Origin: Magnetococcales bacterium
GTDB lineage: Bacteria; Pseudomonadota; Magnetococcia; Magnetococcales; UBA8363
DNA: 36,186 nucleotides
Direction: 5' to 3'
Assembly: GCA_015660855.1 (NCBI GenBank)
Contig: JACSDG010000010.1
Location: forward strand, 1-36,186
Under the pieces are notes generated by a model, which did not search any database, was not told the origin of the DNA, and saw only the letters and a list, made by a program, of their open reading frames with translations. Positions within the stretch are counted from its first letter, which is position 1, and each line of letters opens with the position of its first letter. The position numbers were made by a program, and so were the translations under genes. Of this stretch, positions 14,070 through 18,265 are shown one piece after another.

Positions 14070-14366
14070 ATGGAAATTGAATTCGACCCAGCCAAAGATG
14101 TGGTAAATCTGAAGAAGCACGGAGAATCTTTGAGGCTGGCGAAATATCTTGACTGGGGGTCGTCCATATTTGCACCGGACCGTCGGCGTGACTACGGTGA
14201 GCTTCGCATGATCGGTTACGCGCCATTTGAAGATGGGAGATTGTATTGCGTTGTTTTTGTGGATCGAAACAATGTCCGAAGAATTGTCAGTTTGCGCAAA
14301 GCGAACAGCCGGGAGGTTAGAGACTATGTCAACGCCAGAGCGATCGATATATATCCCAACTTCTGA
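14070..14366 (+). CDS. brnT: BrnT-family ribonuclease toxin
   Basis: This 98-residue protein has the BrnT signature at its start (EFDPAKDVVNLKKHG, then a leucine/alanine helix) and the core DYGELRMIGYAPFEDGRLYCVVF followed by RRIVSLRKAN and REVRDY. In studied systems, BrnT is a RelE-fold RNase that halts translation and is neutralised by BrnA. The order toxin then antitoxin, and the 41-bp overlap with brnA, fit this class. It lies in the accessory patch between guaA and the TS operon. No ribosome site is seen; see the promoter entry for possible leaderless translation. Confidence 0.9.
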   Translation: MEIEFDPAKDVVNLKKHGESLRLAKYLDWGSSIFAPDRRRDYGELRMIGYAPFEDGRLYCVVFVDRNNVRRIVSLRKANSREVRDYVNARAIDIYPNF

Positions 14367-14601
14367 AGAGGATGCGATCATTGCACGTGGTATTGCCGCA
14401 GACCTGGATACATATGAACCAACCACCGAGGAGATCATGGCCATGCGTCCGGTTCGTGGCAGGCCCGTCTCTTTCGATAAGAAAATTTTGTTATCGGTGA
14501 GGTATTCCCCGGAGGTTGTCGATTTTTTTCGATCCACGGGGGCAGGATGGCAAACTCGAATGGATGAGGCCCTTAAAGAATGGGTCGCTTTGCACAGGTG
14601 A
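14326..14601 (+). CDS. brnA: BrnA-family antitoxin
   Basis: This 91-residue protein is an antitoxin with an N-terminal acidic arm (TSEEDAIIARGIAADLDTYEPT) and a C-terminal ribbon-helix-helix-like region: RGRPVSFDKKILLSVRYSPEVVDFF followed by a helix ending GWQTRMDEALKEWV. BrnA binds BrnT and represses the operon. The ATG at 14326 lies within brnT and is supported by GGGAGG 7-9 bp upstream; an in-frame ATG further upstream (14227) is inside the toxin coding region and not needed. Confidence 0.88.
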   Translation: MSTPERSIYIPTSEEDAIIARGIAADLDTYEPTTEEIMAMRPVRGRPVSFDKKILLSVRYSPEVVDFFRSTGAGWQTRMDEALKEWVALHR

Positions 14602-14726: not shown

Positions 14727-16214
14727 ATGGAATTCATCCCCCTCTACTACAAGGAAAAACTGGACGTTATCAATCTTCACGGTGACGTGGGGGTGGTGTC
14801 GTTATGGTCGCCGTTGAAGACGGTCAAAAAACATTTTTCAGCGGCCAATGTCGATCTCAATCCCCAGACCTCCCGAATCGCTGTGTTCGGGACATTGTAT
14901 GGGGATGGGTTGCCTGAATTGTTGCGAAACCTTTTGTATAATCCCCAGTTGCATTACCTCGCGCTGTTCGGGGTCGATTTGGGACGCTCACGGGATGGGT
15001 TGCTGGGATTTTTTCAACGTGGATTGGAACTGACCACCTGCCTCGGTACGCCCGTCCACCAAATTATCGGAACCCTGCAAAAGATGGATGGCGAAGTTCA
15101 ACCCCAAACTTTTCAGCATCGCCCGACCATTTTTGATTTGGGTACTCCGTCAGATCCTGATGCAATGAAAAAGATTTATGATTTTTTTGCCCAACTCCCC
15201 CCCCGGAAGGCCACTTTCCAGGAACGAATGTCTGTTCCCCTGCCGACATTGGCCGTGACCCGCTTTCCCGCAGACCCACGCAGCCACACCATCCTGGCCC
15301 ACACCCCCATGGAAGCCTGGAAAGAATTGATTTTTCGACTGTTTCGCTTTGGTCATCGGGTTAACCTTGGCCAAGGTAAGGAACGTATTGAATTGCAAAC
15401 GGTCAAAATAACTCTGCTTTCGCCAGTGGAAGAATCCGAGGCGGTATTGCAAGATCACGGTTTTTCCCTGGGGCAATTTTCAAGTTATCAAGAAAATATT
15501 TTAAAATCGAACCTGCCGCCAGACCAACACTATGGCTATGGCCATCGTCTGCGCAGCTATTTTGGTGATGTATCGGCCAACGGTTGCGCCGATACCCTCA
15601 AAAAAGCCATTGAAATGCTTAAGGATAATCCCGAATCCCGACATGTCTATATTTCCCTTTGGGATACCTCCCGCGATCTTCTCTCGCCAAACAAAGGTCA
15701 CCCCTGTTTGGTGTCCTTGTTTTTTCGCCGATTTGATAACCTTCTTACCCTGACGGCCTCCTTCAGGACCCATAATGCCCTGCGCGCCTGGCCTGAGAAT
15801 GTTTACGGACTCATCGCCATTCAACGGTATGTTTCTGAAAGAACAGGGATTAATCCAGGGGCCATTACTGTCTTTAGTCATTCCATCAGCATCGATCCCC
15901 AGGGCAATGGTTTGGAACGAGCCAAGACAGTCTGTGATTTTCGGCACCAGGAACGAAAGACGCATACATCCTTTAATCCCGATCCCCACGGTGATTTTTT
16001 GATTTCGGTGGACGAGGAGAAAAAAATGATTGTGGTGGATCATCGCTTTGAAGGACAACACCTCCATCGCTATGCTGGACACAGTGCCGAAGAATTGGAA
16101 CGCCAACTGGTCACCGACAGGGCCGTTTCCGATGTGGCGCACGCCCTGTATCTGGGGCGGGAACTCGGTCGGGCCGAAACCCGGCTTAAAAAAATGCAAC
16201 GTCACCCCGACTGA
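14727..16214 (+). CDS. Thymidylate-synthase-like protein with MtrA-like N-terminal domain
   Basis: This is a 495-residue two-domain protein. Residues about 15-120 (VVSLWSP, AVFGTLYG, LLRNLLYNPQLHYLALFGVDL, IIGT) resemble the MtrA/DUF4346-type domain known with archaeal-style thymidylate synthases. Residues about 195-395 follow thymidylate synthase: YGYGHRLRSYF, then LKDNPESRHVYISLWDTS, then the nucleophile Cys327 in GHPCLVSL, phosphate-binding Arg347 in SFRTHN, and Asn358 in WPENVYGL, aligned with the TS Asn that reads the base. The usual PCH histidine is Leu, and the RSxD Asp is Asn350. A 100-residue C-terminal extension follows. It may methylate or hydroxymethylate dUMP or a related nucleotide; the substrate is unknown. 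It starts a four-gene operon ending in dcd. No good ribosome site precedes the ATG. Confidence 0.75.
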   Translation: MEFIPLYYKEKLDVINLHGDVGVVSLWSPLKTVKKHFSAANVDLNPQTSRIAVFGTLYGDGLPELLRNLLYNPQLHYLALFGVDLGRSRDGLLGFFQRGLELTTCLGTPVHQIIGTLQKMDGEVQPQTFQHRPTIFDLGTPSDPDAMKKIYDFFAQLPPRKATFQERMSVPLPTLAVTRFPADPRSHTILAHTPMEAWKELIFRLFRFGHRVNLGQGKERIELQTVKITLLSPVEESEAVLQDHGFSLGQFSSYQENILKSNLPPDQHYGYGHRLRSYFGDVSANGCADTLKKAIEMLKDNPESRHVYISLWDTSRDLLSPNKGHPCLVSLFFRRFDNLLTLTASFRTHNALRAWPENVYGLIAIQRYVSERTGINPGAITVFSHSISIDPQGNGLERAKTVCDFRHQERKTHTSFNPDPHGDFLISVDEEKKMIVVDHRFEGQHLHRYAGHSAEELERQLVTDRAVSDVAHALYLGRELGRAETRLKKMQRHPD

Positions 16215-16223
16215 GGCGCGACC

Positions 16224-16928
16224 ATGTTTGTTTTTCTGGATATTGGTTTCACTCTCATGGGGGGGCCTTCCTTGGGACCGGCGGGCCGATTGATCGAACA
16301 ATTTTCTCTGCCCCCTGACGCGAAAACCTTATTGAATCATCTGTTGTTTGGCACCCACCTGAAAACTCCCGAAGATTTGGCGCAGCAGCTTGCCCAACAT
16401 TATGGCCTGGAAAAAACGAGCACCCTCCCGTTCATCGAAGAAGTATGGCACAAACAGGCCAGTGAGGCTTTTCCGCTTCCGGGGGCCAAGATCGCTTTGC
16501 AACGATTACACGAGGCCCGTATCCCTTTTGGTTTTATCAGCAACATATGGGCACCGTTTCTTGAGGGATTTATCCGTTTGTTTCCAACAGAGTATCGACA
16601 ATGCCCGGTTTTTGCGTCTTTTCAGGTGGGATTTGTTAAGCCCGATCCCGAATTGTATCTTACCGCTTTGCGCCAAACCGGCATGGATCCGCAACAAACG
16701 GTCATGATCGGCGATACCTACGCAGCCGACATTGCCCCGGCGCAGCACCTGGGGATGAAAACTATCTGGATTCTTACCCGACCTGACAAGGAACGCGCCG
16801 ACCTGGTCAAATTGCTGAACAAAGAAAAACGGGGACCCGATCAAACTTTGGCAAGCATCGAACATTTCCATCCCGAGCAACTGACGACATTGTTCCAAAC
16901 AGAAAACTTGACAGAAAGAAAATTATGA
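16224..16928 (+). CDS. HAD-superfamily hydrolase in TS-like operon
   Basis: This 234-residue haloacid-dehalogenase-fold protein has motif I FLDIGFTL with nucleophile Asp6 (second position Gly rather than Asp), motif II Ser106 in FISN, motif III Lys139 in GFVKPDP, and motif IV MIGDTYAADI with Asp164 and Asp169. An alpha-helical cap lies at about 15-85. DxG forms occur in known HAD families, but the lost general acid could mean a slower or different reaction. It begins 9 bp after the TS-like gene and overlaps the next gene by 4 bp (ATGA). A nucleotide or sugar phosphatase role is inferred from context only. Confidence 0.82.
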   Translation: MFVFLDIGFTLMGGPSLGPAGRLIEQFSLPPDAKTLLNHLLFGTHLKTPEDLAQQLAQHYGLEKTSTLPFIEEVWHKQASEAFPLPGAKIALQRLHEARIPFGFISNIWAPFLEGFIRLFPTEYRQCPVFASFQVGFVKPDPELYLTALRQTGMDPQQTVMIGDTYAADIAPAQHLGMKTIWILTRPDKERADLVKLLNKEKRGPDQTLASIEHFHPEQLTTLFQTENLTERKL

Positions 16929-17578
16929 AAATTACCCGAATTCAAACCATCTCGGAACATGAACTGCTTGACCGTCTGGCAACAACCCGTCTGCGAGGTC
17001 ATGGCCAGCCTGTGATCTATGAAAACGCCCGATTGGAGCTGGTTCGCCAGGTCGATCCCAAAACTTTGTTTCCCGCGCAACGTTATGTCCTCAAGGAAGA
17101 TTATCAAACTGTACTTGATATTTATCAAAATTTTCAAGTTCAGGGGATCGATGTGTTTGGCCTGGAAGGGGGGCTTAATTTTTGGATGGCCAATCCCGAT
17201 TTTCCCTCCGGTGAAGAAGGTCCCATCCCCTTTACCCCCCCCATTGTGGAAATGTCCCTGGAACCGGACGGGAGAACCATACCTTTGATCAACGATGGCA
17301 TGCACCGTATTTTTACCGCCATGAAACTGGGCCGGGCCATCAATATCATCCTTGCCCATCATGTTCCACACAAGTATCCCTATTATGCCTATGCCTTGGC
17401 CAAGGGATGGGACGAGGTCGTCGAATTGGAGCAATTGCCTGATTCCTTCGTCAAAAAGACCTATCGGGATCCGGAAAACTACAAGGCATTGTTTCGTGAT
17501 TTTAACGCCGTCTTTGACGGCATCCAAAAACAACGTAAAAAAACCAACCCGGCGACGTTGCAACCGGAATCGGCATGA
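16925..17578 (+). CDS. ParB/sulfiredoxin-fold-like protein, function unknown
   Basis: In this 217-residue protein the best clue is LINDGMHRIFTAMKLG (121-136), close to the DGxHRxxAxxxxG signature of the ParB/sulfiredoxin superfamily, whose members bind nucleotides (ParB hydrolyses CTP; a serine kinase also has this fold). Before it lies a conserved-looking PFTPPIVEMSLEPDG. The N-terminal third (about 1-75) and C-terminal basic tail are not recognised. It lacks a helix-turn-helix, so it is not a partition protein. Overlap with the HAD gene and a 34-bp gap before dcd make it part of the operon. A nucleotide kinase or CTP-dependent switch is possible, but the evidence is only fold-level. Confidence 0.7.
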   Translation: MKITRIQTISEHELLDRLATTRLRGHGQPVIYENARLELVRQVDPKTLFPAQRYVLKEDYQTVLDIYQNFQVQGIDVFGLEGGLNFWMANPDFPSGEEGPIPFTPPIVEMSLEPDGRTIPLINDGMHRIFTAMKLGRAINIILAHHVPHKYPYYAYALAKGWDEVVELEQLPDSFVKKTYRDPENYKALFRDFNAVFDGIQKQRKKTNPATLQPESA

Positions 17579-17612
17579 ATCGCCACTGAACTCTTAAAAA
17601 AAGGAAAAATCT

Positions 17613-18212
17613 GTGCGGTTATCCGATCAGGACATTCTTATAGCCATCGACCAGGGCCGAATCGTCATCGATCCCTTTCCCCCCGATCCTTGTTTTGGAT
17701 CGTTCTCGGTGGATGTCAGTTTGAGCAATGTGTTTCAAACCTTTCGCCACGTTAAGATTCCCTTCTTGAATCTTTCAGATTCGGAAAGTCTGTATGGCGT
17801 GACCGAAGCGTGTATGGAAAAACTGGTCATTGCCGAACACGAACACTATTTTCTCCACCCTGGGGAGTTTGCCCTGGGAATGACCCGTGAACGCATCAAG
17901 ATTGCCGATGATCTTGTCGGCTGGCTGGATGGACGCAGCAGTCTGGCCCGTGTCGGCCTGATGGTCCACATTACCGCCCATTCCATCGATCCCGGTTGGG
18001 ATGGCCACATCACCTTTGAGTTTTTCAATGCCGGTCGTCTCCCCCTGGCACTCAATCCCGGACTTCGCATCGGTGCCATTTCCTTTGAAACCCTTTCTTC
18101 CAAAACCACGCGCCCCTACGGCAGTAAAAAGGGGGCCAAATATTTTCGCCAGGAAACCCCTCTCTCCAGCCGTATCCACCAGGAACTCAAAGAACCTGCC
18201 CCCAATAAGTAA
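17613..18212 (+). CDS. dcd: dCTP deaminase
   Basis: This enzyme deaminates dCTP to dUTP, the usual Gram-negative source of dUMP for thymidylate synthesis. The 199 residues align along their length with E. coli Dcd: MRLSDQDI start, LHPGEFALG, LVGWLDGRSSLARVGLMVH (GRSSLAR at 107-113), IDPGWDGHITFEFFNAG with the catalytic Glu136, and C-terminal YGSKKGAKYF. It retains the mono-functional arrangement. The start is GTG at 17613 with an AAGGAAAA ribosome site. It is the fourth gene of the TS-like operon, which makes functional sense if that protein consumes dUMP. A hairpin at 18238-18265 ends the operon. Confidence 0.94.
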   Translation: MRLSDQDILIAIDQGRIVIDPFPPDPCFGSFSVDVSLSNVFQTFRHVKIPFLNLSDSESLYGVTEACMEKLVIAEHEHYFLHPGEFALGMTRERIKIADDLVGWLDGRSSLARVGLMVHITAHSIDPGWDGHITFEFFNAGRLPLALNPGLRIGAISFETLSSKTTRPYGSKKGAKYFRQETPLSSRIHQELKEPAPNK

Positions 18213-18237: not shown

Positions 18238-18265
18238 AGGAAACAAGGACGTTGTCTTGTTTCCT
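18238..18265 (+). terminator. Hairpin ending the TS-like/dcd operon
   Basis: A perfect 10-bp inverted repeat AGGAAACAAG/CTTGTTTCCT (18238-18247, 18256-18265) with an 8-nt loop lies 25 bp after dcd. It has only a weak T-tract afterwards (TTCC), so it is either a weak terminator or an mRNA end-stabiliser. Confidence 0.5.

Follow-up and report, generated by a model that had tools for sequence, protein, structure and literature searches.

A four-gene operon at positions 14,727 to 18,212 on the plus strand of the window (the whole analysed stretch of 36,186 nucleotides, taken from a 4.5-Mb, 97.8% complete metagenome-assembled genome, or MAG, of the order Magnetococcales) probably encodes the system by which these bacteria make deoxythymidine monophosphate (dTMP). 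The first gene encodes a thymidylate synthase (TS) domain fused to an MtrA-like domain and a pterin-binding DUF4346 domain (hereafter the fusion), and the third encodes a Parb-CE protein; these two would form the synthase system, with a HAD-like hydrolase (gene 2) and a deoxycytidine triphosphate (dCTP) deaminase, Dcd (gene 4), as accessories. A role in dTMP synthesis is supported because the fusion replaces ThyX, ThyA and the dihydrofolate reductase FolA are absent, Parb-CE co-occurs with the fusion, and the TS active site is conserved. It is further supported by clustering with genes that supply deoxyuridine monophosphate (dUMP) and one-carbon units.

Two routes of de novo dTMP synthesis have been described, ThyA and ThyX; ThyA and FolA form a coupled unit, and carriers of ThyX often lack FolA (PMC9931769). 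Family-by-family content tests over a sample of 48 Magnetococcales genomes found 25 with the fusion, 19 with ThyX and none with both; completeness is 65-76% in the four that have neither. The sequence-only reading had suggested looking for a normal thyA or thyX. No ordinary ThyA was found in the 48 genomes, where every PF00303 match lies in the fusion; the source genome has no PF02511 (ThyX) match, and fusion and ThyX are mutually exclusive in the order. FolA was found in none of the 48. Parb-CE follows the fusion, being present in 24 of the 25 fusion genomes (the exception is 57% complete) and in 0 of the 19 ThyX genomes, and one genome (G001) has only a weaker Parb-CE match within a larger protein. 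Restricting the comparison to the 27 genomes with completeness of 90% or more and contamination of 5% or less leaves no exceptions: 16 have fusion and Parb-CE, and 11 have ThyX alone. The Fisher test over all 48 genomes gives p=8e-10, though such p-values ignore shared ancestry. Fusion and ThyX also alternate inside genus g7 (where G023, G039 and G043 carry ThyX), and there is therefore more than one such split in the tree.

The sequence-only reading had also named, as a finding that would refute it, a TS-like protein that is the sole, ordinary TS with passengers beside it, and on this point the outcome is mixed. The fusion is indeed the sole TS found, but it is not an ordinary one, since FolA is absent and two domains have been added. 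Nor is Parb-CE a passenger, because the two are found together even where their genes are not linked, as in several Magnetococcales genomes; the HAD and Dcd proteins do behave as accessories. In one genome there are two copies of the fusion (G026:C21 and G026:C61), each with Parb-CE beside it, and no HAD or Dcd match was found at either locus.

The system extends well beyond the order. A scan of genome contigs yielded 52 fusion loci, including members of Acidobacteriota (Bryobacterales), Thiotrichaceae, Thermodesulfobacteriota, Bacillota (Desulfofundulus thermobenzoicus DSM 14055 and Desulfocucumis palustris NAW-5) and others, with cultured sulfate reducers among the carriers. The 32 fusion genomes outside Magnetococcales include 29 with Parb-CE, one with ThyX and one with canonical ThyA. 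Because these genomes were picked by the fusion and not by Parb-CE, the 29 of 32 constitute an independent test of the link between the two. Parb-CE was not found in 14 control genomes, methanogens among them. TS and Parb-CE distances are correlated (r=0.90 over 26 loci), a correlation that shared ancestry alone could yield.

Thymidine salvage, with the fusion unrelated to dTMP supply, might be considered as the source of dTMP in these cells: many of the genomes are MAGs, and thymidine transporters and other nucleoside kinases lay outside the scope of the searches. This explanation is nonetheless highly improbable, given that a strong thymidine kinase match occurs in only one of 65 genomes, that the carriers include cultured organisms, and that the fusion clusters with enzymes supplying dUMP and methylenetetrahydrofolate (CH2-H4folate). 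Weak, partial PF00265 matches (E 1.8e-4 to 8e-4, in frames of 346-450 aa) were not accepted as thymidine kinases.

Several observations weigh against assigning dTMP synthesis to the fusion and Parb-CE. Most of the sampled genomes are incomplete MAGs, so that no single absence counts for much and the argument depends on the overall pattern. Three fusion genomes have no Parb-CE match, namely G071 (in which the TS contig ends inside HAD), G085 and G091, and in G090 the fusion and ThyX are found together. The G091 genome, from Parvularcula, encodes a fusion of 28% identity together with canonical ThyA and FolA, and this distant member may have a different job. It is also the only one of 80 genomes in which FolA was found, in searches that did not take in FolM-like dihydrofolate reductases. 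Finally, the ThyX-carrying relatives lack FolA too, so that within the order its absence is a product of both ancestry and mechanism.

The fusion matches the Thymidylat_synt family PF00303 (E=4e-8, about 33 bits) and PterinBD-DUF4346 PF14251 (E=5e-18), in both cases above the Pfam cut-off. By score the closest TS family is that of methanogens, TIGR03283 (E=8e-29; E=1e-30 for the relative L101), but the 100.5 bits fall below the equivalog cut-off of 174.55, and the fusion differs from the methanogen enzymes in carrying the MtrA-like and DUF4346 domains. Like ThyA (PF00303, EC 2.1.1.45), the fusion has the TS fold, the catalytic cysteine, the phosphate-binding arginines, the base-recognizing asparagine and an equivalent of Tyr94. 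A HMMER alignment places C327 at Cys146 of E. coli TS and Cys198 of L. casei TS, and C327, R347, N358, Y271 and R305 are invariant in 45 of 45 relatives. Unlike ThyA, the fusion has two extra domains and an obligate-looking Parb-CE partner, its carriers other than G091 lack FolA, and Asn stands at the position of E. coli Asp169 in 44 of 45 relatives. Asp169 is critical for cofactor binding and for the orientation of hydride transfer (PMC6400193). The missing FolA and the substitution at this position speak, indirectly, against folate as the hydride donor of the fusion. The region of E. coli His207/Tyr209 gave no confident alignment to the fusion.

The sequence-only reading had put first a modified pyrimidine deoxynucleotide or nucleoside, to be used in modifying DNA or as a cofactor or signal, ahead of a self-contained dTMP route. 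TS-fold enzymes do make such products in phages and antibiotic pathways (PMC5175136), and HAD and Parb-CE are unusual partners. However, the exclusion of ThyX and the lack of any other TS would leave the cells with no source of dTMP. N358, which corresponds to Asn229 of L. casei TS and distinguishes uracil from cytosine specificity, is moreover of the uracil type throughout, and no DNA-modification gene recurs alongside the system, in neighbourhoods whose annotation was not exhaustive. The modified-nucleotide proposal is thus very unlikely and its DNA-modification role is unsupported, while the dTMP route that it was set beside gains from the ThyX replacement, the lack of ThyA and the asparagine at position 358.

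A more serious alternative is a two-step route in which the fusion hydroxymethylates dUMP, like the pyrimidine hydroxymethylases of phages and antibiotic pathways, Parb-CE phosphorylates the hydroxymethyl group, and reduction then yields the methyl group. The AlphaFold model of the fusion (mean predicted local distance difference test score, pLDDT, 85.9; predicted template modelling score 0.54, with domain placement uncertain) matches TS-fold structures in Foldseek, and the CMP hydroxymethylase MilA is among the closest, with scores nearly equal to those of ordinary TS. Hydroxymethylases release tetrahydrofolate and need no dihydrofolate reductase (PMC5175136), which fits the missing FolA, and the asparagine at the Asp169 position is compatible with the same chemistry. 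On the other hand, the water-activating Asp145 of T4 dCMP hydroxymethylase (PMC6400193) is replaced by Gly324 in the window protein, and the operon encodes no reductase for the final step. The fusion also differs from the T4 enzyme in having Asn358 in place of Asp179, but a dUMP hydroxymethylase would be expected to retain Asn358, and so a dUMP-hydroxymethylase reading survives this residue comparison. Overall, we regard the two-step route as unlikely.

The Parb-CE protein bears on the same alternative. It matches PF24392 with E=6e-29 and 101 bits, against a Pfam cut-off of 23. A sequence search against PDB gave nothing useful, and its relationships emerged from a fold search: the predicted model (pLDDT 90.7) has sulfiredoxin structures as top matches (E=7e-4), followed at lower significance by free serine kinase (5x0b, E=0.047, a weak match) and CDP-bound ParB. 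The proximity to ATP-binding sulfiredoxin and to a serine kinase, together with the invariant DGxHR motif, would suit a kinase step of the two-step route. Across 29 relatives D124, G125, H127 and R128 are invariant, and the position of the sulfiredoxin catalytic cysteine (in its CHR motif) is occupied by Met or Ile. Parb-CE thus shares a predicted fold and an HR motif with the ParB/sulfiredoxin/SerK superfamily, but unlike sulfiredoxin it has DGMHR without the catalytic cysteine and is tied to thymidylate synthesis. DNA binding is a less likely role for the protein than catalysis or nucleotide binding.

Parb-CE domains also occur in another setting. Two proteins of about 1000 aa, at L205:2051-5164 (G000:C20) and L206:1482-4469 (G026:C21), combine a calcineurin-like phosphoesterase at the N-terminus with a Parb-CE domain at the C-terminus; they adjoin a stand-alone Parb-CE match and show weak similarity to PADLOC PDC-S60. 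They may represent a conflict system in which the Parb-CE domain has been put to another use. The four window proteins themselves gave no meaningful PADLOC match, and the idea of a defence system was rejected.

The domains that flank the TS core suggest a further alternative. The window N-terminal sequence by itself has no MtrA match, but a profile built from the first 195 residues of 18 relatives matches the MtrA structures 8q3v (E=1.2e-5) and 5laa (E=1.5e-4), and 16 of the 18 match an NCBIfam MtrA model in this domain. The DUF4346 part also matches the C-terminal regions of the MtrA model NF002128 and of TIGR00284. From its sequence, the fusion reads as a TS domain inserted between two MtrA-associated domains, and it differs from MtrA in having that TS domain between the parts. 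MtrA is the methyl carrier of methyl-tetrahydromethanopterin:coenzyme M methyltransferase, and so the cysteine-activated dUMP carbanion might take its methyl group directly from a methyl-pterin or a methyl-corrinoid carried on the MtrA-like and DUF4346 domains, with no reductant needed. The lack of FolA agrees with such a transfer. Yet in the one alignment made, to 8q3v, nothing in the fusion corresponds to the GH-motif histidine of MtrA, which we take to be the cobalt ligand, so that corrinoid binding is doubtful, and Parb-CE is left unexplained. Direct methyl transfer is accordingly quite unlikely.

Of the 45 fusion genomes searched, 23 encode a HAD orthologue, and none was found in a ThyX genome; HAD is classed as an accessory because the remaining fusion genomes lack it. 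The orthologue adjoins Parb-CE in nearly all carriers (G081 excepted), even where the TS gene lies elsewhere. Residues D6, G8, K139 and D164 of HAD are invariant in 17 relatives, and motif I is an invariant DxG rather than the usual DxD acid/base pair; the reaction may therefore differ from ordinary phosphate hydrolysis. The assignment of gene 4 is clear, with a match to the dCTP deaminase model TIGR02274 of E=4e-55 and 186 bits (equivalog cut-off 92.8). HAD and Dcd act as accessories to the fusion and Parb-CE.

Gene order reinforces these assignments. The sequence-only reading had proposed a search for the same order in other genomes, and TS-HAD-Parb-CE(-DCD) does recur in Magnetococcales, as does TS-HAD-Parb-CE, without DCD, in Acidobacteriota, which argues that the arrangement is more than chance. 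In Desulfofundulus thermobenzoicus the order is serine hydroxymethyltransferase (SHMT), deoxycytidine monophosphate (dCMP) deaminase, HAD, Parb-CE and TS, and in Desulfocucumis palustris SHMT, deaminase, HAD and Parb-CE are clustered with TS at a separate site. Further lineages have the order Parb-CE, dCMP deaminase, TS, and in a Thiotrichaceae MAG Parb-CE adjoins Dcd. Thus, the neighbours of the system repeatedly include enzymes for the supply of dUMP (Dcd or dCMP deaminase) and of CH2-H4folate (SHMT). The gene immediately upstream of the TS fusion in Desulfocucumis encodes a calcineurin-like phosphoesterase (L096:6046-7980). At another locus (L071:4385-6568, also G036:C167) the TS fusion and HAD occupy a single 728-aa frame with no intervening stop, possibly a gene fusion or a stop codon lost in assembly.

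In the favoured model, the fusion would bind dUMP and Cys327 would attack C6 as in ThyA. A reduced pterin, probably the CH2-H4folate that SHMT produces, would then donate a one-carbon unit. In contrast to ThyA, the pterin would not be oxidized to dihydrofolate, which would make FolA unnecessary; the reducing equivalents, or a ready methyl group, would be supplied from elsewhere. Parb-CE, with its sulfiredoxin/SerK-like fold and probable nucleotide binding, would be an obligate second component. Dcd would supply dUMP by way of dUTP, dCMP deaminase would supply dUMP in other lineages, and HAD would be an optional helper, perhaps a nucleotide phosphatase. We infer the dTMP product, the one-carbon donor, the hydride source and the action of Parb-CE; an external donor might provide the reduction, 5-hydroxymethyl-dUMP might be formed and phosphorylated on the way, or the methyl group might be transferred directly. 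The fusion combines the ThyA fold with a ThyX-like folate economy: it fills the same genomic role as ThyX, with one substituting for the other across Magnetococcales and each occurring without FolA, although their folds are unrelated and nearly all fusion carriers lack ThyX. A bolder proposal, which we put forward tentatively and consider rather doubtful, is a third thymidylate chemistry shared by several phyla and some phages, in which a ThyA-fold enzyme keeps its folate reduced and requires a ParB/sulfiredoxin-type phosphotransferase, for instance by way of phosphorylated 5-hydroxymethyl-dUMP or of direct methyl transfer.

If the dTMP assignment is true, Magnetococcales, Acidobacteriota, sulfate reducers and giant sulfur bacteria would have a third way of carrying out an essential step. 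It would account for genomes that seemingly lack both FolA and any thymidylate synthase, suggest a probable function for the orphan domains Parb-CE and DUF4346, and bear on the workings of the poorly characterized archaeal-type TS enzymes. The open literature yielded nothing relevant on DUF4346, on ParB-CE or on TS together with MtrA, and no description of the system was found there. Neither PF24392 nor thymidylate appears in a survey of the ParB-CTPase fold published in 2025 (PMC12704722). The Pfam names PterinBD-DUF4346 and Parb-CE imply an earlier domain analysis, so a description outside the open literature is possible.

The features of the operon are collected below. The four tightly packed open reading frames of the sequence-only reading, with gaps of 9, -4 and 34 bp, are confirmed at its coordinates, and family scans concur with its calls of a TS-like fusion, HAD, ParB-like protein and Dcd. 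Its closing hairpin stands only in part: the exact 10-bp repeat is present, but a terminator role is unproven, as no T-run follows and a terminator scan did not report the repeat. A possible transcript end is all that we would claim for it.

Table. Coordinates of the operon and its elements in the window
Feature	Position	Strand	Details
Gene 1, MtrA-like/thymidylate synthase/DUF4346 fusion	14727..16214	+	495 aa; PF00303 + PF14251
N-terminal MtrA-like domain, residues 1-195	14727..15311	+	profile match to MtrA structures
TS core, residues about 195-388	15309..15890	+	C327, R347, N358, Y271, R305; TS fold
Codon of catalytic cysteine C327	15705..15707	+	HMMER alignment to L. casei TS
C-terminal pterin-binding DUF4346 domain, residues 419-491	15981..16199	+	PF14251 E=5e-18
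Gene 2, HAD-like hydrolase	16224..16928	+	234 aa; Pfam HAD_2
Gene 3, Parb-CE protein (ParB/sulfiredoxin/SerK fold)	16925..17578	+	217 aa; PF24392
NDGMHR motif of Parb-CE, residues 123-128, presumed phosphate-binding site	17291..17308	+	conservation
Gene 4, dCTP deaminase (Dcd)	17613..18212	+	199 aa, GTG start; TIGR02274
10-bp perfect inverted repeat	18238..18265	+	AGGAAACAAG, 8 nt, CTTGTTTCCT; 26 nt past last stop

A phage or plasmid origin of the system was considered and rejected: tblastn found no match to the fusion in 50,697 phage records or to Parb-CE in 72,556 plasmids, and only three IMG/VR contigs carry either protein. Phage thymidylate synthases are usually accompanied by DNA-precursor genes. 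On one of the three, a phage contig with a terminase (L215:5001-10405), the genes after the fusion encode an adenosylcobalamin-dependent ribonucleotide reductase (TIGR02505, E=4e-98, slightly under the cut-off) and a cobalamin adenosyltransferase. A second terminase-bearing phage contig (L216:1080-5591) has Parb-CE near a dCMP deaminase and an orotate phosphoribosyltransferase-like gene. Parb-CE is also encoded on a further phage contig (L217:5001-5582), and the L215 contig encodes a DNA methylase as well. In the window, genes for a BrnT toxin (PF04365) and a BrnA antitoxin (PF14384) lie directly upstream of the operon, at 14070-14601 on the plus strand.

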